A stretch of DNA of 64,000 bases from Flavobacteriales bacterium (GTDB taxonomy: Bacteria > Bacteroidota > Bacteroidia > Flavobacteriales_F > PHOS-HE28). The first letter of the stretch is position 1. Every line of letters begins with the position of its first letter. A program made the position numbers and the translations under genes. Under the pieces are notes generated by a model. That model was not told the origin of the DNA. It ran no database searches and worked only from the letters and a program-made list of their open reading frames with translations. Below, one piece after another: positions 39,926-63,015 of this stretch. Location: contig JAHCIA010000001.1 of assembly GCA_026129465.1 (NCBI GenBank), forward strand, positions 3,369,583 to 3,433,582, read 5' to 3'.

Positions 39926-39928
39926 CGT

Positions 39929-40336: not shown

Positions 40337-40341
40337 GGTGA

Positions 40342-40437: not shown

Positions 40438-40440
40438 TGC

Positions 40441-41117: not shown

Positions 41118-41120
41118 GGC

Positions 41121-41342
41121 TCAGGAGTTTGCGAAGCGCGCAACCTCAGCCTGCTGGTTGCGCCAGGCCGCGATGCGTTCGTGCTGGTCCTCGGCAATCC
41201 GGCGGGCCACGTCCTCGGGTTCGCGGCCGCAGGCCCAGTCCTCTTCCACAAGGACGAAGTGTTGATCGAAGTCGAGCACGGTGGCGCAGCCGCGCTTGTG
41301 CAGTTCGTCGTTCAGTTCGTCCAGCCAGTCGGGCTTGCTCAT
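41121..41342 (-). CDS. Small phage protein
   Basis: A product of 73 residues; the ATG at 41342 overlaps the stop of the upstream gene (ATGA), favouring it over an in-frame ATG at 41354. It is acidic at the start (PDWLDELNDELHKRG) and unrecognised. Confidence 0.55.
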   Translation of the reverse strand: MSKPDWLDELNDELHKRGCATVLDFDQHFVLVEEDWACGREPEDVARRIAEDQHERIAAWRNQQAEVARFANS

Positions 41343-41695: not shown

Positions 41696-42110
41696 GGTTC
41701 TGCTGTATTGCCCTGTAGTCACTCGCCACGATGGCCTCCGCCTGGCTCACCAGCTTGGGCAGCTCTGCCACGGTGTAGGCGTTCAGCTCCTTGCCCAAGT
41801 ATCCATACTTGCGCACCCAGGCATACACATGCGCCATGTCCGGCTTGCCCTGGACATTCACTGCGCCACGAGCTGCAAGGATGCCGATGATCTTGCGGCG
41901 CATTCTCTGGCCAGCCTGGAGCCTCGGATTCATCTGCATCTCTTCCATCCGGCGTTCCAGTCGGCGCAGCTCCACTACGGTCAAACGGCGCAGGCTATCC
42001 GTGCCTCCGCGAGTGAACTCCCGCACCAGCTCACCATGGTTCTCGTATGGCCAATGAGGGTCGCTCTTGGCATCCTTCCATAGCAGGAAGAATCGGCTAT
42101 ATGTGCTCAT
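41688..42110 (-). CDS. GemA/Gp16-like protein
   Basis: A product of 140 residues. The C-terminal RRKIIGILAARGAV, with a glycine- and tyrosine-containing AHVYAWVRKYGYLGKELNAY and TVAELPKLVSQ, fits the Mu Gp16/GemA (DUF1018) arrangement: a helix with R-K-I-I, then an L-x-x-L-T-x-x-E-L-x-x-L-type end. In Mu, Gp16/GemA modulates host gene expression and DNA supercoiling early in infection. The match is by pattern only. Confidence 0.55.
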   Translation of the reverse strand: MSTYSRFFLLWKDAKSDPHWPYENHGELVREFTRGGTDSLRRLTVVELRRLERRMEEMQMNPRLQAGQRMRRKIIGILAARGAVNVQGKPDMAHVYAWVRKYGYLGKELNAYTVAELPKLVSQAEAIVASDYRAIQQNHG

Positions 42111-42354
42111 CGTCTGAGTTTGAAGATGTCGTCGATCGCTTTGAGCCGTGCGCGTTGCACGGCAATGGCTCGTTCATCGCTGCTGTCCAGCTTTGAATGG
42201 CGAGTTCCAGCTCGGCCCTTTCCGGGTCCGTCCGTGCATCCTTGAGCTGCCTCCGGAACTGCTCTATCATGTCGCTTATCGCCTGCCGATGCTGGTCGTC
42301 GAACAGCGTGAGGGTGGCCGTGCCATTCACCTGGGTATGTCGGCGGGTCGGCAT
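42097..42354 (-). CDS. Small phage protein
   Basis: A product of 85 residues from the ATG at 42354 (a GTG at 42369 is possible). It has a helical middle with many charged residues (DMIEQFRRQLKDARTDPERA). Its end overlaps the Gp16-like gene start by 14 bases. Unrecognised. Confidence 0.5.
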   Translation of the reverse strand: MPTRRHTQVNGTATLTLFDDQHRQAISDMIEQFRRQLKDARTDPERAELELAIQSWTAAMNEPLPCNAHGSKRSTTSSNSDDEHI

Positions 42355-42384
42355 GCAGGATGTATTCACACCAATCGTGTGCGA

Positions 42385-42633
42385 TCACTTGCCCGCGTAG
42401 ATGTTGTGGTCGCGCAGATATTGTCGCACGGCCTTGCCCACGTCGAGGCGGATGCCTTGGCCAGTGCGGTTCGATCCGCATTTCCGCCAGAGCTTTCCCC
42501 GCTTCACCTCCCATCGCAGGTGTGTCACGTTGATGTTCAGCTCACCGATGCGGTGCGAGCCGATGATCGGCTCATTCGCCAGGTCCTTCAGGGCCTGGTC
42601 GTATTCCTGCCAGTGGGTGCAGTCGCGGTCCAT
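42385..42633 (-). CDS. Small phage protein
   Basis: A product of 82 residues from the ATG at 42633. The basic central part (RWEVKRGKLWRKCGSNR) and a C-terminal VGKAVRQYLRDHNIYAGK could bind nucleic acid, but no family is recognised. It follows the tRNA-like sequence at 42658. Confidence 0.5.
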   Translation of the reverse strand: MDRDCTHWQEYDQALKDLANEPIIGSHRIGELNINVTHLRWEVKRGKLWRKCGSNRTGQGIRLDVGKAVRQYLRDHNIYAGK

Positions 42634-42657
42634 CGTGTTCGGGGTTGTGGTGTTGGG

Positions 42658-42729
42658 GGGCCGGAAAAGGGATCGAACCTTCATCGCCGGTAGCTAGCCG
42701 ACTGCCTATCCAGTTTCAGCCATCCGGCC
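42658..42729 (-). tRNA. tRNA-like gene in the early operon
   Basis: Read on the minus strand, GGCCGGA (42729-42723) pairs perfectly with TCCGGCC (42665-42659) as a 7-bp acceptor stem. The D-arm has GG in its loop. The anticodon stem GTCGG/CCGGC encloses CTAGCTA, giving AGC. The T-arm carries the standard TTCGATC loop. No CCA is encoded. Oddities are a U at position 37, a three-base variable loop, and no G3:U70 pair although AGC would read alanine. It may be a decayed or unusual phage tRNA. Confidence 0.5.
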
Positions 42730-42798
42730 CGTGTGGCCCGACGGAGGTGACAGAACCGCCGGGCCTGGGAAGCGGGCACTCCTACCCGCACTTGGTCT

Positions 42799-43449
42799 TC
42801 ACATGCGGCTCCAGTTCATGGTGATGTCCTGCCAGCGGCCTTGCTCATCCTTGCGGTACGCGCGGATGTATGTCTGGCTGCTGGTGGGCTTGTAGCTCTT
42901 CGCCAGCAGGTCCAGCGCCTCGCTGAAGCGGGGGTCACTGACATCTTCCTCGTGCTTGCGCAACTTGGCCACAAGGCGTTCATCGTAGTCACCCTTGCTG
43001 TTGCGCATCAGGATGCTGTCGATGATCTTGTACATGCCCTTGTTGCGGCCCTCGAACTTGTCTCGCAGCACCTGGCGGATGGTCTCGATGGCCATGATGC
43101 TGGTCTCGTCGTACTCGCAGCGCCACTGGCGCTCTATCACCACCTTGCGCAGGCCGTCGCTGCTGGTGAGGGTGTAGCTGTCTATGCCCTCCTTGGGCTC
43201 GCGGTCGTAGGCCAGGTACATCTTCTCGTGCAGCTCCATCCCCAGCTTCACGGCGTGGTCCTTGAACTCCTTGAGGGTGGCGCTCAGCTCGGCCATCTTG
43301 CCGAAGCAGGTCTCCAGGTACTCATCGCGCAGGCGGTCGTACTCGCGGCGTTTGGCATCGGCCTCGGCCTTCTCCTTGGCCTTGGCCTCCTTGGCCAGGC
43401 GCGAGAGTTCGGCCGCGCTCAGGCCCTTGATGTCAGCAGTTGCTCTCAT
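42799..43449 (-). CDS. DUF3164-family phage protein
   Basis: A product of 216 residues found in Mu-like phages. The N-terminal half is a long charged helix (LAKEAKAKEKAEADAKRREY). The C-terminal half has the DUF3164 pattern: SDGLRKVVIERQW, then SQTYIRAYRKDEQGRWQDIT. In related phages it sits between the transposition genes and gp16, as here. Its function is not known. The leader before the ATG reads AAACCCAACCCCAACACC. Confidence 0.75.
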   Translation of the reverse strand: MRATADIKGLSAAELSRLAKEAKAKEKAEADAKRREYDRLRDEYLETCFGKMAELSATLKEFKDHAVKLGMELHEKMYLAYDREPKEGIDSYTLTSSDGLRKVVIERQWRCEYDETSIMAIETIRQVLRDKFEGRNKGMYKIIDSILMRNSKGDYDERLVAKLRKHEEDVSDPRFSEALDLLAKSYKPTSSQTYIRAYRKDEQGRWQDITMNWSRM

Positions 43450-43900
43450 GGTGTTGGGGTTGGGTTTGCTCGTTCTTGGTGTCGGCAGGAGGTCTTATCA
43501 CCAGCACGCTTTTGCCTTCCACCATCTTCATCCACAGGTCGAATGCCCGTGCGTAGTGTGCCGTGTAGCGCAGTGTGTAGGCTTCCTTCAGCAATGCCTC
43601 ACGCTTCCAGTCATTAGGCTGGTGCGGCACCAGGCTTTCTGGGCCGAACCACTCTGCCCAGAGGCGCACCTCGAATGCACGCCACGCCATTTCGTAGAAC
43701 GTCCACCAGCCGATAGCGGCGAGGTGCTCGCGGTACTGTGAGCACGCCTCCAGGCTTACGGTGCCTACCGGTCGCACCAGATCATCCAGGCATTGACAAC
43801 CGCTCTCCAGTATCAGCAGCTGGTAGCTCAGGTCGTCCATGCCGGTGGCCTCCTGTATGCCCGTGCGGGCCTCGTTGCTGCGTTGTATCAAGGCGTTCAT
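43433..43900 (-). CDS. Phage early protein of unknown function
   Basis: A product of 155 residues, tryptophan-rich in the centre (AAIGWWTFYEMAWRAFEVRL). It overlaps MuB by four bases at its start and DUF3164 by 17 bases at its end, so it is coupled to both. No family is recognised. Confidence 0.55.
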   Translation of the reverse strand: MNALIQRSNEARTGIQEATGMDDLSYQLLILESGCQCLDDLVRPVGTVSLEACSQYREHLAAIGWWTFYEMAWRAFEVRLWAEWFGPESLVPHQPNDWKREALLKEAYTLRYTAHYARAFDLWMKMVEGKSVLVIRPPADTKNEQTQPQHHESNC

Positions 43901-44814
43901 GCCGCGATGCGGGACTTCTTCACCTGGATCCTAGCGTAGCGCAAGCCGCGCCCCATGTCCTCCAGGCTGCGTGTTACGACCGCCTCCAGGCGCTCGGGGT
44001 CCGTAAGTCCATTGGCCCTGCACACCTGCATCACCTGCTGCTGTATGAACTTGCGCTGCGCGTGTGGCTCCTGCGGTACCACATGTAGGTATCTGCCACC
44101 AAAGCGGCTGTAAACCTCCTCGAAGCTGTTCCGCTTCAGGCGGATGCTGTTCTCGATGCGCTTGCGGAGGTCGGGAGCGCCTACCATATAGAAGCCGCAC
44201 ACGAATTCAAGCTCGTTGTAGAGCCGCTTCAACAGTCTGTAGGTGCTGTTGTCCATGTCACCGGCCTCGTCAATGATGAGGATGGGCCGCTCCAGGCTCT
44301 TCAGGTAGTAAGTGAAGTCTGCCAGTACATCCTCGGCGCTGCCCTTGGCTTCGATGCCAGCAGCCTGCGCCAGGGCGCGGATGAAGCGGAACCGATTGGG
44401 CGCTAGACCGCCGTTGATATAGAAGGCGTTCCGGTGCGTGGCGGCGAACTCCTTGCACACATGTGTTTTTCCGATCCCAGCGCGGTCGCAGAACATGGCA
44501 GCGAGGCTTTCCGCCTGGCACACCTCAAGCTGCTTGCTGATGGTGAGGTAGGTCTCCGTGCGGGCCGTCACCCACTTCTCCGCAGGCGTGAACTCGAAGC
44601 CCACCGACCTGGCGATGCGCAGCCACTTGCTGTGGCTCAACAGCCGGTCGTTGCTGGCCCATTTCTCGGAGGCGATGTTGCTGAAGTCGCTGCTGTTGAT
44701 GCCGATGCTAACGGCATACTTCGCCCGGCTGCTGAAGCCGCTCTTCTCATATGCTTCCATCAGTTTGGCACCGATGGCCTGCTTCTGTTCGTGGGTCAAC
44801 GTGGGCTTGTTCAT
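43897..44814 (-). CDS. MuB-like AAA+ ATPase (transposition target selection)
   Basis: A product of 305 residues. The Walker A motif is GIGKTH with K116, and the Walker B is ILIIDEAGD. An N-terminal region of about 90 residues (including IGINSSDFSNIASEKW) resembles the helix-turn-helix that binds DNA in MuB. The C-terminal VTRSLEDMGRGLRYARIQVK fits a lid. In Mu this protein coats target DNA, stimulates MuA and gives target immunity. It directly follows MuA and one small gene, as in Mu. Confidence 0.88.
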   Translation of the reverse strand: MNKPTLTHEQKQAIGAKLMEAYEKSGFSSRAKYAVSIGINSSDFSNIASEKWASNDRLLSHSKWLRIARSVGFEFTPAEKWVTARTETYLTISKQLEVCQAESLAAMFCDRAGIGKTHVCKEFAATHRNAFYINGGLAPNRFRFIRALAQAAGIEAKGSAEDVLADFTYYLKSLERPILIIDEAGDMDNSTYRLLKRLYNELEFVCGFYMVGAPDLRKRIENSIRLKRNSFEEVYSRFGGRYLHVVPQEPHAQRKFIQQQVMQVCRANGLTDPERLEAVVTRSLEDMGRGLRYARIQVKKSRIAA

Positions 44815-44819
44815 GGCGT

Positions 44820-45032
44820 TCAGGCTATGGTGGTTCGTGTCACGTCCGTCAGGTTGCGACGATCAGTTTCAGGATGGCGGTGAGAAAGGCCGAATTCGGC
44901 TCGGCCCAACATCAGGTCCTTCAGTCCTAGGTTCAGCTCCTGCCTGGCCATTGCGATGGCCTCCTTGCGCAGGTACTCGGGTAGCCCGTGGTAATTCACG
45001 CTTACAGCCTTGGTCGTATCGATGGTTTCCAT
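44820..45032 (-). CDS. Small phage protein between MuA and MuB
   Basis: A product of 70 residues with a helical middle (EYLRKEAIAMARQELNLGLK). It is not recognised. It starts 12 bases after MuA and ends five bases before MuB. The leader has AAACCCCACGAACC before its ATG. Confidence 0.5.
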   Translation of the reverse strand: METIDTTKAVSVNYHGLPEYLRKEAIAMARQELNLGLKDLMLGRAEFGLSHRHPETDRRNLTDVTRTTIA

Positions 45033-45044
45033 GGTTCGTGGGGT

Positions 45045-47084
45045 TTAGAGGTTGTCCACCGCGCGCTGCTGTATCTCAGCCTCGCTGTAGTTCCGTACGT
45101 GTTGCTGTGCGGCCTTGTGGCTGCCCTTGATCATGATGTAGTTCTTCTCCACCGCCTCTTGCTCTGGCGTCATCCGCATCACATCGTCCGTCTTGCTGCC
45201 TGCACGTGGTCGGCGCACCAGGCTCGCATCCAGCAGGAGCTGCTCGGCCAGGTAGGCCATCTGCTCCCTGTTATTCAGGATGCTGTCTATCGCTGCCTGG
45301 CTCAGCTCCTTCTTGAAGGATTCAGTGGCCGCGAGCTGTGCCCTGGTCTCAGGCGTGTGGTCCATGAGCGCCATTGGCATCGGCATCACTTCCGGCACCA
45401 GATATCGGCGCAGGCCGTCCATGCTGGTGGCCAGCACAGTGCTCAGGTCCTGCGGGTCGTAGGTGATGCGGAAGCGGGCACCCACCTCGCGCTGGAAGGC
45501 AGTGCTCAGCAATTGGTAGGGCCGCTCTTCTCCAAGGATGGTAGGGCATAGGCCTCGGTTCGTCAGCTCGTTCTCCCACTTGTGCTGCACACCGAACAGC
45601 TCCAGGTACTGCTCGCGGCCAATGGCGCGAAGCGTGCCGGCGGGCATGGCCTCCAGCGCCTGTCGGTATGCTGCAACCTTGTCGGCTCGCTCTGCTGCGA
45701 TCGCCTCGTGGATCTGTGCGATCACACCGTGCTCGTCCGGGAAGTGCTTTCGCAGGCTGTTCAGCGCTTCCGGGCTCGGCTGGTTTTCGCTCCTGGAGGT
45801 TACGTTGTGGCCGCTCCAGTTGTAGTTGCGGTTCACGTAGGTGTCGTTGTGGTGCTTGAACCAGGGCTCCACGATCTTGCTGCGGCTGTTCCTCGCCGCT
45901 GCCGGTGTATACTTCACGCCCATGCGCTCGTACCACTCGCCCAGCGTCTTGTGGCCAAGGCGGTCGCTTTGCACCTGGTAGGGCAGGGCGTAGCTGCCGG
46001 TCAGCTCCTTCATGTGCAGCACCGCGTTGGCCACCGCCTCCTGCGCCAGCGCAATGGTGTCCTGGTCGCCGATGGCGTAGCCCACCGGATACCACGTGTG
46101 CGGGTCCACCACCACCACTACCAGCTTGCGGTGGTGGTGCGTCACCTTGCCGCCCTCTTCCTTGCGGTATAGCAGCTCGTAGTCCGTGCCATCGTGCACC
46201 CACATGTAGGTGGGCTGCGTGGGCCTGCTGCGGTGTACCACTATGCCGTAGTTGTTACTGTACTGCGCGATGCCCTTGGCATAGATGCTGGCCGCGCGGC
46301 CATTGTTCCCATCGGCCAGAAAGCGCCGCACCGTGTTGGCGCTGATAGTTGGCCAGCCCTTCGCCGCAGCGATGCGGTTGTAGTCCGTGGCGTTGCGCTG
46401 TAGGCTGTAGTTCTGGTGGCGGCTGCAAACCATCAGCAGGGCCTTGCGCTGGTCATCGCCCAGCTTGCTACTGTTCGCGTTGCCCTGGCCACCGTGTATC
46501 AGCGTGGCCGCTCCAGGCTGGCCCTCGGCCTTGGCTGCCAGGTAGGCGCGCTTGCGCGCCTCCAGCCGGGCGAAGCTCGTGGGGAACTTCTTCGGGAGGC
46601 GCTCACGGTTGGCCTTGATGTAAGCCAGGATGGTTTCCTTCAGCGCCATCACCGTCATGCCAAACTCCGCCTGCACTGCCCGCGAGCCTCCCTCCTTCAT
46701 CACCTGGTCAAGCGTAGCCACCAGGTTCATGATGGCAGCGGCCTTCTTCAGCTCGCGGCGCTTCTCGGGTGAAAGGCCGAGGCCGTTGCTGCTCTTGAAG
46801 CCCTCGATGTGCCGCTCGTCCTCGGGCGTTAGGACCAGGTGGCGCTCCACAAGCTGCGCCTTGGCGATGTGCTCCGGGTCGCCACCAAGGTGCGCGGCAA
46901 CCAGCTCCTGGTACTTCGGTGCGAGGCTCTTCCAGTCGATCAGGGCAGGCCGTCCACCACTACCGCGCTGACAAATCGTTATGCGCCCCTCCCTCACGCC
47001 CTTGTCATAGGCGGGCTTGCTCAGGCAGCGGTCGTTCACCAGGTCGGCGAACTCCAGTAGATATGTGCCCTCAAGAACTACCAT
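45045..47084 (-). CDS. MuA-like DDE transposase
   Basis: A product of 679 residues. The catalytic DDE core is visible: D298 in VHDGTDYE (D301 is an alternative), D374 in QSDR and E406 in IVEPWF. The C-terminal Mu-transposase domain follows. The N-terminal half contains DNA-binding-like segments (for example ISANTVRRFLADGNN) that would recognise the phage end sites. It performs replicative transposition together with MuB. Its start overlaps the small gene upstream by seven bases. Confidence 0.9.
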   Translation of the reverse strand: MVVLEGTYLLEFADLVNDRCLSKPAYDKGVREGRITICQRGSGGRPALIDWKSLAPKYQELVAAHLGGDPEHIAKAQLVERHLVLTPEDERHIEGFKSSNGLGLSPEKRRELKKAAAIMNLVATLDQVMKEGGSRAVQAEFGMTVMALKETILAYIKANRERLPKKFPTSFARLEARKRAYLAAKAEGQPGAATLIHGGQGNANSSKLGDDQRKALLMVCSRHQNYSLQRNATDYNRIAAAKGWPTISANTVRRFLADGNNGRAASIYAKGIAQYSNNYGIVVHRSRPTQPTYMWVHDGTDYELLYRKEEGGKVTHHHRKLVVVVVDPHTWYPVGYAIGDQDTIALAQEAVANAVLHMKELTGSYALPYQVQSDRLGHKTLGEWYERMGVKYTPAAARNSRSKIVEPWFKHHNDTYVNRNYNWSGHNVTSRSENQPSPEALNSLRKHFPDEHGVIAQIHEAIAAERADKVAAYRQALEAMPAGTLRAIGREQYLELFGVQHKWENELTNRGLCPTILGEERPYQLLSTAFQREVGARFRITYDPQDLSTVLATSMDGLRRYLVPEVMPMPMALMDHTPETRAQLAATESFKKELSQAAIDSILNNREQMAYLAEQLLLDASLVRRPRAGSKTDDVMRMTPEQEAVEKNYIMIKGSHKAAQQHVRNYSEAEIQQRAVDNL

Positions 47085-47329
47085 GCGCCGAGGTCGCCCT
47101 TCAGCCGGGCGCGATCCAGGGTGATGCGGTTCGCTGTCTTCCAGATGCGCAACGCCAGGGCGGACTGCGCTTTGCGCTTCTCGGTCAGGACCTTCTTTAC
47201 ATAGTCCGGTGTGGCGCGGGTGATCTCTGCGATGAGAGCCTTGTCGCCCTTTCGCAGGTCCCTTGTGATGCGCTGCTTGGCGGCATCGGTTAGCCCATAT
47301 GCAGGGCGCGTCCTTTCTTTGTCCCTCAT
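47078..47329 (-). CDS. Small DNA-binding-like protein, first early gene
   Basis: A product of 83 residues, basic, with a helix-turn-helix-like stretch (KALIAEITRATPDYVKKVL). It is the first gene of the early operon, where Mu has ner, a negative regulator. A Ner-like role is therefore plausible from position. Its ATG lies nine bases from the -7 element, so the transcript has almost no leader. Confidence 0.6.
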   Translation of the reverse strand: MRDKERTRPAYGLTDAAKQRITRDLRKGDKALIAEITRATPDYVKKVLTEKRKAQSALALRIWKTANRITLDRARLKGDLGAW

Positions 47330-49473: not shown

Positions 49474-49524
49474 ACAGCCAGTTGTTCATTGTTGGGCATA
49501 CCCGTGATCGGTTCTTTGGGTTCC

Positions 49525-50094
49525 ATGGTATCGGAGGACTTGGGGCATGCGGGGGGGGCTGGCACTGCTGGGCTCCCTTGCCCCACGGCCGATGCGGCTG
49601 CGGTCGCATTCGTCCGCAGCTACCGGCCCGCCATCGATTGGGCCATCAGGACAGCGGCCATACCGCGCGCTGACCGTAACGACCTGGTGCAGGATATCAC
49701 CATCAAGGTGCTTGAGCGCTTTCGGCGTCATGGCCTCGTTAACACGAATGGCAGCAACCTCAGCTATGCGATCGCGGTGGCTCGCAGTTGTGCGTTCACT
49801 TGGCTCAAAATGCGGAAGCGAACAGCCACCGCGCACCTCGCCGCCGAGGCCGATGCTCGCTTGCGAGACGTCGACCAGGTAGTGGATGACCAAGTCATAC
49901 GCCAGGACGGCCATGCGCGCTTGCGATACGCCATCGCTAGCCTCACGCCGTTCCAGCGCTACTTGATGGAGCGCGTGATGGACGGTGCCACACCCACCGG
50001 GATCGCACGGGAGAACGGTTGGTCAGAACAGGCCACGAGAAAGGCGCACCGACGCGCGGTAAAGGAGTTGCGCAAACGACTCGTCCCACGATGA
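49525..50094 (+). CDS. ECF-like sigma factor of the prophage
   Basis: A product of 189 residues from the ATG at 49525. A region-2-like segment (AFVRSYRPAIDWAIRTAA with RNDLVQDITIKVLERF) and a region-4-like helix-turn-helix (SLTPFQRYLMERVM, then GIARENGWSEQATRKAHRRA) are present in the right order and spacing for a small sigma-70 factor. There is no anti-sigma gene. In Mu the late activators Mor and C occupy this position between early and structural genes. Here a sigma factor may do that job. Confidence 0.7.
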   Translation: MVSEDLGHAGGAGTAGLPCPTADAAAVAFVRSYRPAIDWAIRTAAIPRADRNDLVQDITIKVLERFRRHGLVNTNGSNLSYAIAVARSCAFTWLKMRKRTATAHLAAEADARLRDVDQVVDDQVIRQDGHARLRYAIASLTPFQRYLMERVMDGATPTGIARENGWSEQATRKAHRRAVKELRKRLVPR

Positions 50095-50183: not shown

Positions 50184-50369
50184 ATGGCAAGGAACAACGA
50201 CCTTATCGCAAGGCGCAATGCCCAGATCCGCAAGGACTATGAGAAGCTCCGTTCCGCGAAGCAGGGGCGAAAGCCCAAGTTCACGGCCGAATATGTGATC
50301 AGTCTGCTTTCCGAGCGCTATTACCTCAGCGAGCGCCGCATAGAAGACCTGGTGTGGACCAAGGGGTGA
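50184..50369 (+). CDS. Small phage protein
   Basis: A product of 61 residues, basic N-terminal half (ARRNAQIRKDYEKLRSAK) and a helical C-terminal half (YVISLLSERYYLSERRIEDL) of helix-turn-helix-like character. It is a frequent type of small protein in Bacteroidota prophages. It is convergent with the next leftward gene, with no gap. Confidence 0.55.
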   Translation: MARNNDLIARRNAQIRKDYEKLRSAKQGRKPKFTAEYVISLLSERYYLSERRIEDLVWTKG

Positions 50370-52995: not shown

Positions 52996-55887
52996 TCATC
53001 GGGCGTTCTTCTTTACCAGGTTGCCCATGCGATGCCTGCCGATTGTCTTGGCATCGGCCTCGTACCACGTCACCACGCGCATGGATGGCTCGGAACGGGC
53101 CTGTAATATCGCCCGTGCCTCCACCACGATGGTCTTTCCCTCGTAGTACCTGATGTACTTGTAATGAGCGGCCCCAGGGGTGTCCCTTTTCGATGAGCCG
53201 AGCAACCAGACCTCATCGGGCTGCTTCAGTACGTCAGGTATGGCGTGGGCCAGACCATAGCGCTTCTCTTGCTCATACCTCTGTTCAAATCCCTTGTGTC
53301 CGGGGTCGGTGTGCTTGCGGTAGGCGTCTCGCGAGAAGGACCAAGGTCTGCCTACGTGGTCATGGAAGGTGGTCTTGCTCTGCTGCGGCGTGGGGAACAA
53401 CAGCGCTTCGGCCTCTTCGCGCGATAGCGCACCTTGTGGCATGCCAGGCAGTTCGCGGCTCATGATATCCGCGTAGCGCTGTTTGCGCCACAAGCGGCCA
53501 TAGTTCTCCTTGATGCCCATGGCCTGGTCCAGCTTGCCCGTGTTGTAAGAGGCGTTCAGCTTGAACACCTCTCCCAGCTGTGACCTGTTCACGGCGAAGC
53601 CGCTGCTCTTCATGACCGCATACTCCTTGGGGTCAATGAACTCCTGTGCGCTGTGTTTGTCCTTGGGTAGCGCCTCAGTGCCGTCATCGATCGGCGTCAC
53701 GTAGCAGCGGCAGCGCCAGCCGTTCGGCGGGTAGATCTCCCTCCAGATGCTGTCGTTGTGATGGAAGACCTTGTTGTTGAGGCGGGCGTGAGCTTCGCGC
53801 ACCCGGCCGTCCTCCATGGTCTCATAACGCCAGAATGGGAGGGCATCGGCGCGCTCCTTCATGCTGTAGTAACGGCTGGCCTGCATTCCGCTATTCACAG
53901 CGTTGGCATACTCTGTGGCTCGGTATGCCTCGAATTTGCCGAACTTCTTACTCTCCACCACGCGGCGCTTGAAGTCGGCGAAGCCCTTTGAGGATCGAGC
54001 GATCTCGTTCATTTCCCGTGCCATGTACTCTGTCTTCAGGCCCGAGAACTGGTATATGTTGGCCTCCATAACGGTATGGGCCACTGTGTCAATGGCCTCG
54101 GGGTTCACAGGTGCATTCGGCCAGCCTCTGTCGAATGCGCTCTTGAGTGCCTCAGCAGTATGGTTGAAGTAGTGCTGGGAGAACAAACCGCCACTGTCTT
54201 CGATCTCGCGAAGAACGGCGTCTGCTTCCTCTTCGGTGAGCGGCACCAGCCCGCCCTCGGCGGTGATGTCCATATCCCGGCTCCCACCGCACACCCCACA
54301 GCTTCCAAGGCTCTTGCGCGGCCACTGCGCTGTGATGCCATCGCCGTCTTCATCCTCATCCTCCTCCCCGCCTTCCTCGGCTTCGCCCTTCTTCTTCCCG
54401 CTCTGCTTGCCGTTGCCTTTGGGCGGGGTGTCCGTGGGTGGCGGGTCGGCCTGCTTCATGCCTTCCAGCATTTGGTCGATGCGCTCCTCGGGCACCTTGG
54501 GAAAGGCCACGCGAATGAGCGGCCGCGCAACGGCTGCGGGAATCTCGCCAGTGGACACCTTGGTCATGAGGTCCAGCAGGCTGGCCACTTGTGCGCCGTT
54601 CATGGCCGTGTCCTGGATGCTCAGACCATCCGGCGATACAACAGGGTCGGCGGGGTCTCCACCTGGCCCGATCTCCCCAGGCATACGGCGTGCCCCCAGG
54701 ATCTTGATGCCGGTGCGCTCCTCCACGTGCTTGGGGTCGATGTCGAACACCACGCCGAGCTTGGCGACTGCTTCCACTGTTTCCATGGCACTCATGTCGC
54801 GCAGCTCGTCCCACTGGAAGCGGATGCCCTTCAGCGGGTAGCCCAAGGCGACCAGGCGCGGAAGTAGTTCCTGGTTGATCACATAGAGTGCGGCTGTCTT
54901 GTCCGCCTGGTGCCGGTCCTCGGCCACGCCCTGGAGCACCTTCATGGATCCGTAGGTGCCGCTGGCGTCCTTGTTGTCGGTGGTGCCATCCTGCCCCAGC
55001 ACGCGCTTGCTGATCTCGGAGTTCATCCTGGAGATCAGGTCGTCGAACACCTTGTGCGGGTCGCCACCAGGCGTGGGGCTGATGCCGAACTCCTCGTCGC
55101 CCTGGATCACTGCGTAGGCACTGCTCAGCATGTTCTGCATCACCTCCTCCAGCTGGCGCACGCGCCGGGCATCGCGGGCTGCTGTCTTCACCCAGCGGCT
55201 GGGGATGCCGTAGGTGCCCACGAATGCGCTCCAGCTTCCCACGGCATACTTCTTCACGATGGCCACCGGTGCCACGCGCTCCAGCAGGCCAAGGTCATCG
55301 GGCCTGCCCACTTCGATCAGGTAGCTGCGCAGAGGCTCCTCACGGAACTTGTAGCCGGTCTCTTCGCCCATGCGCCTGGCCACCACGCCGTGGAAGGGCA
55401 GCACGTTGCGCGGATCGATCCGGTTCACCGTTCGCAGGTCTCCGGGCTTGGGCAGCTCGCCCAGCTCGATGAGGGTGTGGCCCACGAACTCGGCCTCCAC
55501 CACGTAGCGTAGGAAGTCCTCGAACCATTGTGCCTCCAGGAAGGTGAGCAGCTCCGGCTTGGCCTTGCCGTCCGGCCCCACCAGCTTGAACTTCGATCGT
55601 TGCACCCGCAGCACTCGTGTCTCCAGCACGCTGCCAAGGTGGGCGTCCTTCACCAGGCTGTCGTAGAGGTCCATCAAGCGGCTGCGGTCGGTCCGGTGTA
55701 CGTTCTTGGCCATGTTCACCGCCACCTCCCAGTCGCGCATGTCCACGCTGCGGTGGGGCATGTTCCAGCGCTCCAGATCGGGCATGCGATCGCTCTGCTT
55801 CATGGCCAGGGGGAGGGCCGTTCCGGAAAAAGCCGCTCTAAGGCGCTCAAACAGGTTCGGACGGGGTGATGTACCAGCGAGGCGCAT
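52996..55887 (-). CDS. Portal (DUF935)-MuF head protein-PBECR nuclease fusion
   Basis: A product of 963 residues from the ATG at 55887; the frame is open further up to a GTG at 55971 inside the preceding gene. Three parts are seen. Residues about 30-400 are a DUF935 (Mu gp29-type) portal, with DLYDSLVKDAHLGSVLETR near the start and VLPFHGVVARR later. An acidic linker (EEGGEEDEDEDGDG) separates it from a MuF minor-head domain (about 560-780), recognised from RATEYANAVNSG, then ARLNNKVFHHNDSIW and PPNGWRCRCYV. The last 120 residues (HKGFEQRYEQEKRYGLAHAI, DEVWLL, VVEARAI, RVVTWYEAD) fit the PBECR family of Barnase/EndoU/colicin-like nucleases. Mu keeps gp29 and gp30 separate; the fusion is clear because the frame is uninterrupted. 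Confidence 0.82.
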   Translation of the reverse strand: MRLAGTSPRPNLFERLRAAFSGTALPLAMKQSDRMPDLERWNMPHRSVDMRDWEVAVNMAKNVHRTDRSRLMDLYDSLVKDAHLGSVLETRVLRVQRSKFKLVGPDGKAKPELLTFLEAQWFEDFLRYVVEAEFVGHTLIELGELPKPGDLRTVNRIDPRNVLPFHGVVARRMGEETGYKFREEPLRSYLIEVGRPDDLGLLERVAPVAIVKKYAVGSWSAFVGTYGIPSRWVKTAARDARRVRQLEEVMQNMLSSAYAVIQGDEEFGISPTPGGDPHKVFDDLISRMNSEISKRVLGQDGTTDNKDASGTYGSMKVLQGVAEDRHQADKTAALYVINQELLPRLVALGYPLKGIRFQWDELRDMSAMETVEAVAKLGVVFDIDPKHVEERTGIKILGARRMPGEIGPGGDPADPVVSPDGLSIQDTAMNGAQVASLLDLMTKVSTGEIPAAVARPLIRVAFPKVPEERIDQMLEGMKQADPPPTDTPPKGNGKQSGKKKGEAEEGGEEDEDEDGDGITAQWPRKSLGSCGVCGGSRDMDITAEGGLVPLTEEEADAVLREIEDSGGLFSQHYFNHTAEALKSAFDRGWPNAPVNPEAIDTVAHTVMEANIYQFSGLKTEYMAREMNEIARSSKGFADFKRRVVESKKFGKFEAYRATEYANAVNSGMQASRYYSMKERADALPFWRYETMEDGRVREAHARLNNKVFHHNDSIWREIYPPNGWRCRCYVTPIDDGTEALPKDKHSAQEFIDPKEYAVMKSSGFAVNRSQLGEVFKLNASYNTGKLDQAMGIKENYGRLWRKQRYADIMSRELPGMPQGALSREEAEALLFPTPQQSKTTFHDHVGRPWSFSRDAYRKHTDPGHKGFEQRYEQEKRYGLAHAIPDVLKQPDEVWLLGSSKRDTPGAAHYKYIRYYEGKTIVVEARAILQARSEPSMRVVTWYEADAKTIGRHRMGNLVKKNAR

Positions 55888-55936
55888 ATCGTGCAAGTTC
55901 AATGGAGTTAAACGGGTTCTAGGGGCCTTCTTGGGC

Positions 55937-56440
55937 CTAGAAGTGGTGGCCCTTGGGTATCCATGCGCCACCTACGCGGGGTATACCGGCGTCCAGGGAG
56001 GGGTCCTCCACTGCTGGAAAGTCCGGTACCTCCTTGCCGGCTGCCACCCTGTCCAGCCAGGCCAGGGTCTCGTCATGGTCGTCCTTCACCGTCTCGGGTA
56101 TCTTCCTGGGGTTGATGCGCCGGTACAGCAGGTACACGAAGATGTTGAGCACGTGCAGGATCACCAGCGGGTGGCGGTCGTCGTCCTCGGCAGCGAACAG
56201 TGCATCGTCGTTGAAACGGTTGTGCAACGCACTCCGCACCTTGGCGATCGCCATGCTCTCGCAGCTCAGCTCCACGGTCTCGCTGGTGGCCAGCGCTGCG
56301 GCATTTGCGGCCACGGCCTCGGCATCGTTCTCATCCGGCTCAGGCGCACCAGGATCCCAGTCGCGCAGGTCGTTCCGGTGTTCATCGCGGATGCGGCTGT
56401 TCACATCGGCGGCTGTCAGGAAGGCGTATTCGATGGCCAT
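55937..56440 (-). CDS. DUF1320 (Mu Gp36-like) protein
   Basis: A product of 167 residues. The DUF1320 pattern is plain: VRSALHNRFNDDALF, then ILHVLNIFVYLLYRRINPRK and DHDETLAWLDRVAAGK. In Mu, Gp36 is a head-tail connector. An alanine-rich insert sits near residues 40-55. It lies between the terminase and the portal fusion, three bases after the former. Confidence 0.82.
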   Translation of the reverse strand: MAIEYAFLTAADVNSRIRDEHRNDLRDWDPGAPEPDENDAEAVAANAAALATSETVELSCESMAIAKVRSALHNRFNDDALFAAEDDDRHPLVILHVLNIFVYLLYRRINPRKIPETVKDDHDETLAWLDRVAAGKEVPDFPAVEDPSLDAGIPRVGGAWIPKGHHF

Positions 56441-56443
56441 GGC

Positions 56444-57985
56444 TTACCAGATGTTCTTGGGGCGTGGTCGTGGAGCAACTACCGGGTCCGCCCATTCCCG
56501 GCTCACTACTTCGCGGCTGAGCACGCTGATGGCTTGCTCGTCCGCATCGGGTGCATCGTCGTGGCCGCTGTAGCCTGGTTCGATCCCTTTCAGTTGGGCC
56601 AGGGCCACCATGCTGTCGCTGTCGCCCTTCAGGCGATCGCTGTAAACCACGCGGCCGTTCTGGTAGTACGGGTGCAGGCTAAGAATGCGGTCGTACTTGT
56701 TGGCCTTGCTGCGTTCGGCCCGGCTGATGAGCAGCTGGTGCCGCTCCTCCTTGCACACGTCGGCAAGGGTGCGCTCAAGCTCGTCGTTCCAGAACTGCGC
56801 CTCGTACTGCCAGCGCACGGTAACACTGGCAGGCAGGTTGCGGTCGTAGTCCACCATCCAGCGTACAGCAGCGGCCATCTTGCTCTGCTTGCAGAAGGTG
56901 GCCAGCAACCAGTAGCGGTTATCCTTGCTTAGGCCCCACACGCGCACGGCGTTGTAGTCTGCGGTGCTCGTACCAGCGTAGGCCACATCCCAGTGGCCTA
57001 CGACATGCTCAAAGTGATCGATGCGCGGTGGCTTCTCGAAACTGAAGAGGTCGTCGGTGAAGATGCTCCCTTCCACGTGCGGCTCGTGCAGGTACTCAGC
57101 GCGTACGGCCAGGGTGCCGTTCTTGCGCTCCATGTCGCGCCAGTACGCATCATCGAAACCGTACTTCTCTGGCCATGCAGCCAAATAGGTGACGGGATCG
57201 TACGCCTTCACCTCGTTGCACACCCAGTCCTTGTGCCGCTCCAGCAGCCGGGTCTGTATCATGTCCGGCGCGAATCGGTTGTTCGCGATCACCAAGCGCT
57301 GAACGGGGCCGTCCATGGTACCGAGCACATCGGTCTCCACCCAGTGTACCATCTCGGCCAGGCGCTTGGGGTTTTTGCATAGCTGGCGGGTCTCGCAGTC
57401 GTCCAGCACGATGTAGGTTGGACGCAGCGCGCGCTTGCGCAGGCCGCGCACACTTTGGCCCATGCCCAAGGCAACGCCGGTGAACCCTCCCTTGGTGGTG
57501 AAGGAGCCGTCCTGCCAGCTGCCGCTCATCTGCTGATCACCGCAGTCGTGGATCAGCCGTGGGTTGGCCTCGAACTCTGCCTGCACGTCGCTCAGCAGGG
57601 TCTTGGCGCGGTCGTGGCTGCTGCCCACGATCACCAGGTACATGGGCTCGCCACGGAACCACAACCAAAGGGGTGTGATCACATCAGCCCATACGCTCTT
57701 CGCGTGGGCGCGTGCCCAGCGGAGCACGATGCGGATGTCCTTTGTGCGCAGTATGCGCCGTGCGGCTTCATCCTGGAAGGCGGCACACTTGCTGCTGGCG
57801 TAGTGTTTCAGGTAGGTCTCGGCGAAGACCACGGGGTCTGCTTTGGCCTCGGCGATGCGCAACTCCTTTTCAACGGCCGTTTCATGCGCTTTGAATCCAG
57901 CGCTGTTGCGCAGGATCTCCAGCTTGCGCCGGTACCCGGCCAGTAGCCGTTCCTCGGCCTTGCGGTTCCTGGCCTTCTTGCTCAT
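56444..57985 (-). CDS. Terminase large subunit (Mu gp28-like)
   Basis: A product of 513 residues. The ATPase half has LRWARAHAKSVW (a Walker A variant) and YIVLDDCE (Walker B). The nuclease half begins at VGHWDVAYAGTSTADY and ends with SGHDDAPDADEQA, giving the acidic metal-binding residues. It packages phage DNA from replicated, chromosome-integrated copies in Mu-like phages. Its start overlaps the small-subunit gene by four bases. Confidence 0.88.
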   Translation of the reverse strand: MSKKARNRKAEERLLAGYRRKLEILRNSAGFKAHETAVEKELRIAEAKADPVVFAETYLKHYASSKCAAFQDEAARRILRTKDIRIVLRWARAHAKSVWADVITPLWLWFRGEPMYLVIVGSSHDRAKTLLSDVQAEFEANPRLIHDCGDQQMSGSWQDGSFTTKGGFTGVALGMGQSVRGLRKRALRPTYIVLDDCETRQLCKNPKRLAEMVHWVETDVLGTMDGPVQRLVIANNRFAPDMIQTRLLERHKDWVCNEVKAYDPVTYLAAWPEKYGFDDAYWRDMERKNGTLAVRAEYLHEPHVEGSIFTDDLFSFEKPPRIDHFEHVVGHWDVAYAGTSTADYNAVRVWGLSKDNRYWLLATFCKQSKMAAAVRWMVDYDRNLPASVTVRWQYEAQFWNDELERTLADVCKEERHQLLISRAERSKANKYDRILSLHPYYQNGRVVYSDRLKGDSDSMVALAQLKGIEPGYSGHDDAPDADEQAISVLSREVVSREWADPVVAPRPRPKNIW

Positions 57986-58458
57986 GCGTGGATACGTGCT
58001 ACCTCATCGAGCAGCAGGCTTTGGAACTCCACCAGCTTCACGTGCGCGGCGGGGTCGTACTTCTGAAGTTCGCCGAACACCCACTCCATGATGCGCAGCC
58101 TGGCGCTGAGCGTGATGTCGTTCTCGGCGCGCACGATCTCCAGCGTCTTCGCCGTCTTTGCCAGCGCATCCACCAGGCGGGCCTTCTCCTTGGCCCCGCC
58201 CATGGCCAGGGCAAGGTCCTTGTCGCGCTCCATGTTGGTGAGCTGTTCGCTGTAGGTCTGGATCAGGCCACGCAGCGCATTCTCCACGTTCTTGCTGCTG
58301 GTGAGGTGTGCGGTGCGCAGGTCCTCCCAGTTGCCTTTGGTGGCCCAATCGCCCACGGTCTTCTCGCGCACTCCCAGCTTTTCGGCGATCTCCTTGCGCG
58401 TGATGCCCTGCTCCACGAAGTAGATGCGCGCGATGTTGCGTTCCTGGTCCTTGGCCAT
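57982..58458 (-). CDS. Terminase small subunit-like protein (DUF1804 type)
   Basis: A product of 158 residues from the ATG at 58458. The N-terminus YFVEQGITRKEIAEKLGVRE is a helix-turn-helix, followed by VGDWATKGNWEDLR, which is the classic small-terminase start in Mu-like phages (DUF1804/YfeC-like). It is coupled to the large subunit. The upstream region has a large palindrome. Confidence 0.78.
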   Translation of the reverse strand: MAKDQERNIARIYFVEQGITRKEIAEKLGVREKTVGDWATKGNWEDLRTAHLTSSKNVENALRGLIQTYSEQLTNMERDKDLALAMGGAKEKARLVDALAKTAKTLEIVRAENDITLSARLRIMEWVFGELQKYDPAAHVKLVEFQSLLLDEVARIHA

Positions 58459-58501
58459 GCTGCGAAGGTGGTCCCGTAGGGGTTCGCGCGCGCGCAATTT
58501 C

Positions 58502-58537
58502 TCCCATGGTGCGGGGCACCAACCCCGCACCATGGGA
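58502..58537. promoter_or_regulatory. Perfect 15-bp palindrome between divergent late operons
   Basis: TCCCATGGTGCGGGG (58502-58516) and its exact reverse complement (58523-58537) flank a six-base spacer. It sits in the 124-base gap between the leftward terminase operon and the rightward protease/capsid operon, a natural place for a shared late regulator site. A smaller CGGCC/GGCCG pair lies at 58563-58583. Confidence 0.6.
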
Positions 58538-58582
58538 ACTTTTGTTGGTGGCGGAGGATCGCGGCCCGCATGTTTGCGGCCG

Positions 58583-59674
58583 ATGATCAAGCGCCCGCTG
58601 CATATCACCGCCAAGCGCAACGGCAAGCGTGCCGATGTGCGCATCGAGGGCGTGATCGCGAGCTACACACGGGCGAACGCCCGCGACTTCGAGGCCAGCA
58701 TCGACGCGCTGGTGGCCAGTGGCGTGGCCGATGGCCATGTTTACATCGATAGCGAGGGGGGCAGCGTACTTGAGGCCAAGCGCATCCTGGGTGCGCTGCG
58801 CAAGCTCACGGGCCGGATCACGGGCGAGGGAGGTCCTGCTGTGATGAGCGCTGCCACGTACATCGGCCTGCACCTGGACGAGTTCCGTGTGCAGAGTACG
58901 ACTTCGTACATGATTCACAAGCCCAAGGCGATGGTGGACGGCGACGAGGACGAGGTGGAGAAAGACCTGAAGGGCCTGCGCGATGTGACCAAGGAATATC
59001 GCGCGGCTTACGCGAAGAAGACGGGGAAGAGCGAGGAAGATATCGAGGCACTTTGGAGCAAGGGCAACCGCTGGTACACCGGCGAGGAGGCTGTTGCCGA
59101 AGGCTTCGTGGATGGCCTGGTCGAAGACGAGGGAGAAGAGATCAATGAGGAAGCCGTTGCGCGCATCGCCGCATGTGGCTGTCCCGCCAATAAGTTACCC
59201 AAAGCCAGTTCGGCCAAAACCAAGACCACAACGATGGACATCAACCTGCTGCGTGCCACGCTGGGCATGCCCGAGACCGCAACCGAGGCTGAGGTCCTCG
59301 CCCGTCTGAATGCGCTGAAGGCCAGCGAGGCCAAGGCGAAGGCCGATGCCATCGCCCGCCGCACCCAGGAGGTGAAGAGCATCCTGGACAAGGCCGTTGC
59401 CGAGAAGCGCATGACCGAGGCGCACCGCGCCAGCTACGAGGCCAAGTTCGCCGCAGACTTCGATGCCACCAAGGCCGAAGTGGAGGCCCTGGTGGCCGCG
59501 CCCAATGTGGCCAGGGAGACCGGAGCCGATGGCGGTAGTGCCGCTGTGGCCAAGGGGCGCGAGAACTGGACCTACGCCGAGTGGATGGAGAAGGACGAGA
59601 AGGGCCTGAACGCCATGCGCAAGGACAACCCCGAGGCCTTCGAGGCGCTCTGGAAGGCGCAGTACGGCAAGTGA
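58583..59674 (+). CDS. ClpP-type head maturation protease with scaffold domain
   Basis: A product of 363 residues from the ATG at 58583. The N-terminal half is an S14 (ClpP-like) protease: YIDSEGGS at about residues 54-61, catalytic S89 in VMSAAT and H112 in YMIHKP. The C-terminal 146 residues after a KTKTTT linker are a helical, alanine/glutamate/lysine-rich scaffold with a MDIN-type internal start at 59234 (codon 218). In related phages the scaffold is also made alone from an internal start. It matures the capsid shell. Confidence 0.85.
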   Translation: MIKRPLHITAKRNGKRADVRIEGVIASYTRANARDFEASIDALVASGVADGHVYIDSEGGSVLEAKRILGALRKLTGRITGEGGPAVMSAATYIGLHLDEFRVQSTTSYMIHKPKAMVDGDEDEVEKDLKGLRDVTKEYRAAYAKKTGKSEEDIEALWSKGNRWYTGEEAVAEGFVDGLVEDEGEEINEEAVARIAACGCPANKLPKASSAKTKTTTMDINLLRATLGMPETATEAEVLARLNALKASEAKAKADAIARRTQEVKSILDKAVAEKRMTEAHRASYEAKFAADFDATKAEVEALVAAPNVARETGADGGSAAVAKGRENWTYAEWMEKDEKGLNAMRKDNPEAFEALWKAQYGK

Positions 59675-59731: not shown

Positions 59732-60781
59732 ATGAAGCACTTCATCAACTTCTTCACCGCGCTGTTTCTGTGCCTGTTCATGGCCGCAGCCGTAAGCCAC
59801 ATCACCGGCGCGGACCTCGGCACCGCCTTCGTTGGCTGCCTGGCCGGGTCGGCCATGCTATCGCTTGTGCCCATGCCGCAGGGCGTGGCCAATGCGGTGG
59901 CGCTCTTGCAGCTGTGGGAGTCGGCCATCATCAATCCGTTCGATGCGGACAGCCGCTTCCTGGATGGCGTACAGGAGAAGAACCAGTACGTGAACAAGAA
60001 CATCATCAACCTCACCGAGATCGGTGCGGACCCCGACGTGCTGGTGAACAACACGGTGTATCCCATTCCCAGCGATCAGCGCACGGACAACAACATTCCG
60101 CTGGCACTGAACAAGTATGAGACGACGAACACCACCATCACCGATGATGAGCTGTACGCGATCCCGTACGACAAGCCCGGCAGCGTGGTGAGCCGCCACC
60201 GCATCAGGCTGAACACCTTCTTCCTGGCGCACGCGGCCTACAATCTGTGCATCCAGGAGGACACGGCCACCACGCCCCTGCTGCGCACCACCGGCCCCGA
60301 TGATGGCACCGGCCGCCGCAGGCTGCTCCCCGCCGACCTGATCCGGTTGCAGCTGGCCATGGACCAGATCGACGCCCCGGATGATGAGGGTGAGCGCCGC
60401 CTGATCCTGAACGCGCAGCACTGCGCCGACCTGCTGATCGCGGACCTGAGCTTCGCCCAGCAGTTCCACAACGCCAAGAAGGGCCTTATCAGCGAGAACT
60501 ACTACGGGTTCCGCACCTACAAGTACACGAAGAACCCGCTGATCACGGCCGCTGGCCAGCGGAAGGCCTTCGGCTCGGCAGCAGTGTCCGGAGACCAGAA
60601 GGCGACGGTGGCCTTCCTGACGAGCCGCAGCTTCAAGGCGAGCGGTACCATGAAGTTCTACTACCGCGACGCGGCCACGAACCCCGAGATGCGGGAGAGC
60701 AACGCCGGTTACCGCTGGCATGCCATCGCCCTGCCGCTGAAGAACACGGGCTTTGCGGCCATCGCCAGCGCCAACATCTGA
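59732..60781 (+). CDS. Major capsid protein
   Basis: A product of 349 residues, expressed directly after the protease/scaffold gene. The body matches Mu-like/HK97-type capsid proteins of Bacteroidota: NAVALLQLWESAIINPFDAD, then FLDGVQEKNQYVNKN, an RRLILNAQHCADLL segment and TVAFLTSRSF near the end. The first 47 residues include two hydrophobic stretches (FFTALFLCLFMAAAVS and LGTAFVGCLAGSAMLSL), odd for a capsid; translation from the ATG at 59873 (MPQGVANAVALL) would skip them. Alternatively a small membrane protein has fused to it. Confidence 0.75.
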   Translation: MKHFINFFTALFLCLFMAAAVSHITGADLGTAFVGCLAGSAMLSLVPMPQGVANAVALLQLWESAIINPFDADSRFLDGVQEKNQYVNKNIINLTEIGADPDVLVNNTVYPIPSDQRTDNNIPLALNKYETTNTTITDDELYAIPYDKPGSVVSRHRIRLNTFFLAHAAYNLCIQEDTATTPLLRTTGPDDGTGRRRLLPADLIRLQLAMDQIDAPDDEGERRLILNAQHCADLLIADLSFAQQFHNAKKGLISENYYGFRTYKYTKNPLITAAGQRKAFGSAAVSGDQKATVAFLTSRSFKASGTMKFYYRDAATNPEMRESNAGYRWHAIALPLKNTGFAAIASANI

Positions 60782-62117: not shown

Positions 62118-62623
62118 TGACGGCAGCGCAAGGCGCGGCGGCCTACTTCGCCGAGAATCCGGAGGTGGACAGCGTGCTGGCCACCAGCGATGGCAATGTG
62201 TGGCCGCTGGCCCAGCTGAGCCTGGCCACTCACCACGCCACGCGCAACAGCCTGGCGGCGCCTGGCACCGTGGATCGCGAGGACCTGGAGGAGGAGATCG
62301 CCGTGGCTGAGCTGATCCTGATGGCCATGGGCAGCCGCACAGACGCGAGCAAGGGCGTGACCAAGGTGGCCGTGCCTGTAGAGCCGGTGCAGCCCCCAAC
62401 CTATGAACAGGCTCGCGCCGAACTAGCCACCGCACTGGGCATCGCCGCACTGACCGACCTGGACGAGAGGTACACGGAGGATGGTGTGGTGCTGCTCGCG
62501 ATCGATGCGGTGATCGCCACCTGGTACCGCAGCGGCATGACCGTGGCCGCATGGGCCGCGCAGAGCAAGGCCGTGCGAGAAGCCGCCGTCGCGGCGGAGT
62601 TCCCTGACTTCATCACCCTGTAA
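62117..62623 (+). CDS. Phage protein with DGNVW motif
   Basis: A product of 168 residues. An early SDGNVWPLAQLSLATHHA segment matches DDGNVWLPGAKHLAYTHA of the next gene, so the two share a small domain. The C-terminal part is alanine-rich and helical. It starts inside the stop of the endolysin frame (TGATG) and ends in TAATG with the next start, so all are coupled. A tail-associated role is possible from position. Confidence 0.6.
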   Translation: MTAAQGAAAYFAENPEVDSVLATSDGNVWPLAQLSLATHHATRNSLAAPGTVDREDLEEEIAVAELILMAMGSRTDASKGVTKVAVPVEPVQPPTYEQARAELATALGIAALTDLDERYTEDGVVLLAIDAVIATWYRSGMTVAAWAAQSKAVREAAVAAEFPDFITL

Positions 62624-63015
62624 TGATCACCATGCACATCTCAAAGATCCATCTGGCCGCAGCCCTTGCTGTTTTCGCACAGTACGCAGATGCACAGGAA
62701 GTGTACGTGACCGATGATGGCAATGTGTGGCTGCCCGGTGCCAAGCACCTGGCGTACACCCATGCCAAGGCCAACAAGCTGCCAGCACCGACGCGCGTAG
62801 AGCGCAAGCATGCAGATGTGGTGGATGGTCTGCGGCAACTGCTGAAGGGCACCGACAAGGCCGCCGCCGACAAGGCTGCTGCCGACAAGGCCGCCGCCGA
62901 CAAGGCTGCTGCTGACAAGGCTGCTGCCGACAAGGCCGCCGCCGACAAGGCTGCTGCTGACAAGGCTGCTGCCGACAAGGCCGCCGCCAACAAGGCTGGC
63001 AAAAAGGGCAAGTAA
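62623..63015 (+). CDS. Phage protein with KAAAD tandem repeats
   Basis: A product of 130 residues. It opens with a signal-like stretch (HISKIHLAAALAVFAQYADAQ), a DDGNVWLPGAKHLA domain shared with the gene before, and then nine exact copies of DKAAA plus a basic end (NKAGKKGK). The repeats would form a long alanine-rich helix with alternating charges, as in TolA-like spacers. The 45-bp higher-order pattern of the DNA shows recent duplication, so length may vary. Function unknown; placed just before the tail sheath. Confidence 0.6.
   Translation: MITMHISKIHLAAALAVFAQYADAQEVYVTDDGNVWLPGAKHLAYTHAKANKLPAPTRVERKHADVVDGLRQLLKGTDKAAADKAAADKAAADKAAADKAAADKAAADKAAADKAAADKAAANKAGKKGK
62854..62988 (+). 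repeat. 15-bp tandem repeat (nine copies)
   Basis: Nine units of GACAAGGCNGCNGCN. Units 4-6 and 7-9 are identical as 45-bp blocks, marked by the GCT/GCC choice. A degenerate tenth unit follows to 63000. Confidence 0.95.

Follow-up and report, generated by a model that had tools for sequence, protein, structure and literature searches.

A perfect palindrome between divergent late operons of a Mu-like Bacteroidota prophage is probably a helically phased operator

What does a perfect 15-bp palindrome do in the gap between two phage structural operons that point away from each other? The question arose in a 64,000-nucleotide stretch of a Flavobacteriales genome, called the window here, in which the earlier note had placed such a palindrome between divergent terminase and protease genes. 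This location was confirmed. The gap is 124 bp long and lies between the start of a small terminase gene (58458, minus strand) and the start of a ClpP-like protease gene (58583, plus strand). The small terminase subunit (DUF1804; 57982-58458, minus strand; PF08822 2.7e-9, PF06056 5e-6 and PHROG terminase small subunit families) is the first gene of the left late operon, which also encodes the large terminase subunit (56444-57985, minus strand; phrog_38 1e-59, no Pfam match). The head maturation protease (58583-59674, plus strand; PF00574 2.1e-15, phrog_2976 1.4e-34) is the first gene of the right late operon, and the major head protein follows it (59732-60781, plus strand; phrog_267 4.6e-11, no Pfam match).

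The gene content identifies the element as a Mu-like (predicted transposable) prophage, with a DDE transposase, a MuB-like ATPase and Mu-type portal and head genes. Pfam searches detected PF06074 (2.9e-61), Phage_Mu_F and Mu_Gp36. The MuB-like ATPase matched AAA_22 at 4.4e-12, the transposase matched rve only at 6.6e-4, which is under its cut-off, and both proteins match their counterparts in Peternella_1 and p00. A 991-aa protein encoded at 52996-55971 was found to combine Mu portal, Mu F-like and PBECR2 nuclease-like domains in one chain.

The palindrome occupies 58502-58537. Its left arm, TCCCATGGTGCGGGG (58502-58516, minus strand, on the side of the terminase promoter), and its right arm, the exact reverse complement of TCCCATGGTGCGGGG (58523-58537, plus strand, on the side of the protease promoter), flank the 6-nt loop CACCAA and are 21 bp apart from start to start. 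We examined whether copies exist elsewhere in the host, a possibility that the earlier note had raised. The whole 36-mer has no second copy in the 3.88-Mb genome, and the 15-mer arm has no further exact copy and occurs at one other place with one mismatch. A dispersed REP-like element was excluded by this uniqueness. An Rfam search of the window returned a tmRNA only. The view that a perfect match of this length is very unlikely to arise by chance held for first-order Markov sequences (12 of 64 kb each), which contained no perfect arm of at least 15 bp and on average 0.08 of at least 12 bp (loop up to 20), but real host DNA is richer, with four perfect arms of at least 15 bp in a 400-kb sample, some of them terminator-like by eye. 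Because the host sample holds four such arms, the hairpin by itself is unusual but not unique in kind, and it is not decisive.

Outward-facing xAnnTTYG elements of the Bacteroidota -7 type were found on both sides of the palindrome. The element of the protease/capsid operon, CATGTTTG (58569-58576, plus strand), has the form xAnnTTTG in the window and in seven close relatives. It is preceded by a -33-like element, GTTGG (58544-58548, plus strand), which is aligned with TTTGG of the seven relatives, and the TTGG columns are invariant in all eight sequences. The element of the terminase/portal operon, CACCTTCG (58463-58470, minus strand), contains TTCG in four of these eight sequences and TTTG in four. 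The spacer of the terminase promoter carries an alternating CG tract (58485-58495), Z-DNA-prone by composition and present in 8/8 aligned sequences. On the minus side of this clade the CG tract occupies the -33 position, and there is no clear -33 element on the minus strand of the window. Compared with the consensus of the Bacteroidota sigma-ABfr promoter, given in the accessible text of PMC7366714 as TAnnTTTG at -7 and TTTG at -33, CATGTTTG and CACCTTCG both lack the leading T, and the minus-strand element is also one T short (TTCG).

The palindrome and the -7 pair of the window share one axis, both being centred at 58519.5 and thus agreeing to the base, and each arm centre lies 42.5 bp from the centre of its own -7-like element, on the minus side and on the plus side. 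This exact register between the palindrome and the flanking promoter-like elements is the outstanding feature of the locus. In the window and the seven close relatives, the distance from the -7-like element to the start codon is 4-5 nt for the terminase and 6-10 nt for the protease. Because they are so near the start codons (58456-58470 and 58569-58585 in the window), the late mRNAs of this clade would be nearly leaderless. Leaderless-type transcripts are uncommon in Bacteroides thetaiotaomicron, in which about 3.7% of 5' UTRs are shorter than 10 nt according to the portion of PMC7366714 available to us.

The same two genes diverge in the seven close relatives, and the 15-mer was lost in them. 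The earlier note had proposed its own test, the presence of the palindrome in relatives with the same gene order, and taken literally the exact sequence failed it, while its symmetry and spacing persisted. The -7 pair distance was 105-106 bp in all eight sequences, and the best gapless inverted repeat lay within 0.5 bp of the -7 axis in five of the eight. The off-axis exceptions, L003, L043 and L044, had 8, 13 and 4 of 22 positions complementary at the axis, and L044 had 11 complementary positions half a base off the axis versus 4 at the axis. By eye, L003, L005 and L006 contain a second short inverted repeat (e.g., CGGCGG / CCGCCG), which brackets the protease -7 element by the start codon.

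For a broader survey, loci were gathered with small terminase and protease queries from Bacteroidota genomes, phage records and unassigned viral contigs. The discovery set started from 53 loci with both genes (repeat fetches excluded), and removal of 10 near-duplicates and of one locus with the protease 2417 bp away left 42. For the validation set 87 loci were examined and 52 retained as non-redundant; two of the 52 (L048 and L054) came from the first viral scan. Among the loci in which both genes were recognised, none had the terminase/protease pair in a same-strand arrangement. The distances between paired -7-like elements fell into classes of 80-82, 102-107, 123-127 and 144-148 bp, in steps of about 21 bp. 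The motif and the spacing windows were set by eye on the discovery set, and the 34/42 regions in class there are so by construction; the 144-148 window was set from a single 144-bp case. Two classes are thin, with three loci at 80-82 bp and one at 144-148 bp, and L174 was counted through its 148-bp pair, though it was later grouped by its 107-bp pair.

In the validation set, any pair at 60-170 bp was found in 28/52 regions and an in-class pair in 24/52, against a mean of 0.88 and a maximum of 4 in shuffled sequences. Among the 34 validation regions with a confirmed divergent protease, 22 had any pair and 19 had one in class (shuffle mean 0.52, maximum 3). Overall, in-class pairs were present in 58/94 non-redundant regions, which are homologous phages and not independent draws, and in 54/5682 random windows of such loci. 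No in-class pair was detected in the other 36/94 regions, a group that includes 15 of the 34 validation regions whose divergent protease was confirmed. The spacing class changed at least 10 times on a terminase tree, and at least five changes are forced by well-supported branches for each main class; the tree was a quick one and the count is a parsimony minimum.

The letters of the -7 element were a selection criterion, so their conservation proves nothing. At unselected positions on the plus side, T was found at -24, -23 and -22 from the -7 start in 47, 57 and 49 of the 58 in-class regions (background 0.36), and on the minus side T was found at -23 and -22 in 40/58 and 37/58. These T-rich positions coincide with the TTTG -33 element of the Bacteroidota sigma factor (consensus from the accessible text of PMC7366714).

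Repeats, inverted or direct, exceeded dinucleotide shuffles at p<0.05 in 17/42 discovery regions and at p<0.01 in 11/42, compared with 2/42 and 1/42 for coding controls of equal length. The combined excess in the discovery set reached 1.8e-12 by Fisher's method, and 2.3e-11 when the window was left out. The gapless test detected no significant repeat in 25/42 discovery regions, which are weak negatives because such tests overlook imperfect arrays. Of the 30 direct repeats scoring at least 8 that lie between the -7 elements in the 58 in-class regions, 17 were spaced at 20-23 bp, where 1.0 was expected; the remaining spacing bins together held 13, against about 10 expected. Around the -7 axis, complementarity in successive 10-bp steps was 0.54, 0.47, 0.41 and 0.36 for the 102-107 class and 0.45, 0.48, 0.59 and 0.50 for the 123-127 class. 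When the axis was shifted by 0.5 or 1 bp, the inner three steps (30 bp) dropped to 0.16-0.34 (0.25-0.28 expected) and the fourth step remained at 0.29-0.41. The letters of the repeats vary from phage to phage, yet the repeats cluster in the gap, and a tight cluster of site matches was seen nowhere but in the terminase/protease gap of the records examined.

A variety of arrangements was observed in individual relatives. Three repeat copies, 22 and 23 bp apart, were found in L051 and L058, whereas L068 and L006 have two at a distance of 23 bp. L096 has three copies 21 bp apart, the third with 3 mismatches in 11. The Elizabethkingia phage TCUEAP3 (L198) carries GTATCATAC-like sites at three centres, 17199, 17221 and 17243, with the axis at 17221.0 and a -7 distance of 125 bp; it failed the automatic test, as its terminase start was set too far upstream, and it was checked by hand and stands outside the 58 regions. 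GTATCATAC is common to the host-genus prophage G007 (L006) and the Elizabethkingia phage (L220:17195-17247) despite their distant terminases. In L168, the axis bears a 13-bp palindrome, TACCGA-A-TCGGTA, and related sites lie 22 and 23 bp from it. L174, whose host belongs to another family, is a prophage with perfect 19-bp arms around a 5-nt loop, centred on the axis of its 107-bp pair; as judged from its sequence, it is a second example of the window's design. In L182, which has no in-class -7 pair, the same gap contains by eye a near-perfect inverted repeat, AACGTTCCCAA...TTGGGAACGTT, with arms of about 19 bp.

These results suggest that the palindrome is probably a helically phased operator for a phage late activator, common to two divergent late promoters. 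After the early genes, a phage-made regulator would bind each 15-bp arm, so that the left arm would be operator site 1 and the right arm operator site 2. Since the arms are 21 bp apart, or two helical turns, both proteins would occupy one face of the helix, and each would be placed just upstream of a promoter, about 42 bp from the -7 centre, where it would recruit RNA polymerase. The terminase/portal and protease/capsid operons would thereby fire together. The promoter role of the -7-like elements, the binding of a protein to the arms and its action as an activator, not a repressor, are inferred. An activator is preferred over a repressor from the position of the sites alone: they lie just upstream of each -33/-7 pair, two turns apart and mirror-symmetric. 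An activator in contact with RNA polymerase would be expected at such a position, which would serve the two operons alike. The earlier suggestion of a late-regulator site is thus favoured by the dyad on the -7 axis, by the helically phased repeats and by the outward promoter elements in relatives, at the level of a probable reading. Its companion suggestion, a hairpin in two overlapping transcripts, finds no support, because both promoter-like elements lie outside the palindrome and neither transcript should contain it.

A hairpin could also act in RNA as a terminator, halting antisense read-through, or could shape a leader. The earlier note had dismissed a terminator too strongly, since on the plus strand of the window the stem followed by ACTTTTGTTG passes a terminator scan, and perfect stems of like size, some terminator-like, exist in host DNA. 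The feature is not conserved in the relatives, however, and the intrinsic terminator was rejected on this ground: terminator-like sequences occurred on the plus strand in 6/18 and on the minus strand in 1/18 regions of the window's spacing class, but on the plus strand in 1/36 and on the minus strand in 8/36 regions of the 123-127 class. L003 and L008 have only 8/22 complementary positions at the axis, and some relatives have direct repeats at the two-turn spacing in place of inverted ones. The strand signature of the mismatches is weak (11 G-T versus 7 A-C in six sequences, the window and five relatives), and the plus strand folds more stably in only 22/42 regions. A function in RNA is thus very unlikely.

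The same sites could instead bind the immunity repressor or another phage repressor, which would silence both late operons in the prophage. G007, TCUEAP3, fF4, Peternella and MT835523 each encode, at one end, a repressor-like protein (XRE/S24-type by eye), and silencing of a CI-like repressor in hankyphage caused most genes to rise, as described in the available part of PMC12135933. The repressor-like proteins of G007 and TCUEAP3, the two phages with GTATCATAC, are 21% identical, and GTATCATAC first seemed to track the repressor gene. The TCUEAP3 protein, however, is more similar to the one in MT835523, a phage with a different site; the immunity-repressor operator was rejected as a candidate for this reason. 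In Peternella and TCUEAP3, moreover, the tight site cluster was found in the late gap only and was absent at the early control region, and the sites lie upstream of the promoter elements, not over them. We consider repression from the array unlikely.

A strong gyrase site (SGS) might lie in the gap, which is well inside the prophage. Mu requires a central SGS, and from the accessible text of PMC10052514 and PMC8705779 its presence in other transposable phages is not clear. Neither the two-start symmetry nor the alignment with outward -7- and -33-like elements would be expected of a gyrase site, and the site sequence varies between close relatives, which makes this reading highly improbable. 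It is extremely improbable that the arrays form a pac site bound by the adjacent small terminase. Small terminase subunits of other phages bind repeated sites, and the arrays are directly upstream of the small terminase gene, but the sites do not follow the enzyme: the sister terminases L058 and L118 have different sites, and the distant terminases G007 and TCUEAP3 have a common one. The small terminase is an unlikely binder of the sites for the same reason, as the sites do not track its tree. Hankyphage, moreover, packages by the headful from the left end with 29-31 bp of host DNA, according to the part of PMC12135933 at hand, and its relative p00 has a -7 distance of 124 bp in this gap.

The phased-operator reading calls for a regulator, and two candidate genes were found in the window. 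The first encodes a 61-aa helix-turn-helix-like protein (50184-50369, plus strand), and it faces the end of the left late operon. Homologues were found in 10 other loci, including G003, G006, G007 and G060, relatives whose contigs reach that place, as well as Peternella_1 and viral contigs of its kind; no match to the family was detected in p00, MT835523, fF4 or TCUEAP3. A single-sequence AF2 model predicted three helices, the last two helix-turn-helix-like, with a pLDDT of 80, and a Foldseek search of the PDB with this model returned nothing at E<=0.001. The second candidate, which adjoins the first gene, is an ECF-type sigma-factor-like protein (49489-50094, plus strand; phrog_1740 3.4e-11). 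Its own sigma domain matches are weak (0.037 and 0.066) and under the cut-offs, and at E up to 0.1 its homologues matched Sigma70_r2 in 5/5 and Sigma70_r4_2 in 4/5 cases. Among the loci searched it occurs in five, all of this clade, and it is fast evolving, with 30-42% identity among relatives. The predicted 61-aa protein may be the regulator, perhaps together with the predicted sigma factor.

Known late activators were searched for in the same genome. Mor (PF08765) had no match, with a positive control matched in B. subtilis, and Ogr_Delta (PF04606) had none, with a positive control matched in E. coli. The gene at 38841-39395, considered as the positional equivalent of Mu C, was rejected, since its product looks like a lipoprotein with a weak BamE similarity under the cut-off.

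The layout has a counterpart in phage P2, in which the PO/PP promoters likewise drive portal/terminase genes one way and scaffold/capsid genes the other. In the P2 record NC_001895, the annotated starts are at 3016 (minus) and 3127 (plus), and the one activator site, 3057-3087, lies within half a base of their midpoint. Here, too, portal/terminase and protease/capsid operons diverge. The palindrome is centred between the -7-like elements of the two predicted promoters. In contrast to P2, this genome has no Ogr_Delta match, the putative promoters resemble the Bacteroidota type, the spacing changes in steps of about two turns, up to three recognisable sites occur, and the site sequence varies among phages. 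By analogy, the gap appears to work on the P2 plan but is not a member of the P2 type, because the activator family is absent and no two-turn array is annotated in P2. The prophage is Mu-like, as is the phage with the Mor/C late promoters, but no Mor match was found in its genome. Mu has several rightward late promoters, whereas one divergent hub was seen here. Hankyphage p00 and Peternella_1 (Winoviridae) have the same divergent gene order; their -7 spacing of 124-125 bp places them in the 123-127 class, unlike the window, which is in the 102-107 class.

Mor/C has been regarded as a marker of transposable phages, yet it was absent from the Leptospira prophages surveyed, as stated in the accessible part of PMC8705779. 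Literature searches brought up no title or abstract opening that describes the gap, which does not prove that no such paper exists. Nor is it described in the available text of papers on the Mu gyrase site, hankyphage, Winoviridae and the phages or prophages of Porphyromonas gingivalis and Leptospira. For the late-gene switch of transposable phages that lack Mor/C, the gap supplies an exact address, a predicted two-turn geometry and, for this clade, two candidate regulators. Its arrangement also gives a sequence rule by which the late control hub could be located in metagenomic phages of this kind. A wider generalization is possible, although we regard it as doubtful: Bacteroidota transposable phages may have an undescribed late-activation system, in which phage-specific regulators would act on one to four phased sites, placed between two divergent promoters at intervals of 21-23 bp. 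A helix-turn-helix family of about 60-70 aa might replace Mor/C in one large subgroup, the number of sites would set the promoter spacing in two-turn steps, and site and regulator would change together, giving each phage its own late switch.

Two minor features of the prophage were also observed. The early module (39408-47329), with the transposase, the MuB-like ATPase and the genes downstream of them, runs opposite to that of the G007 prophage and has the same orientation as in G003. A small protein encoded at 62623-63015 contains a long KAAAD-type repeat in its C-terminal part.
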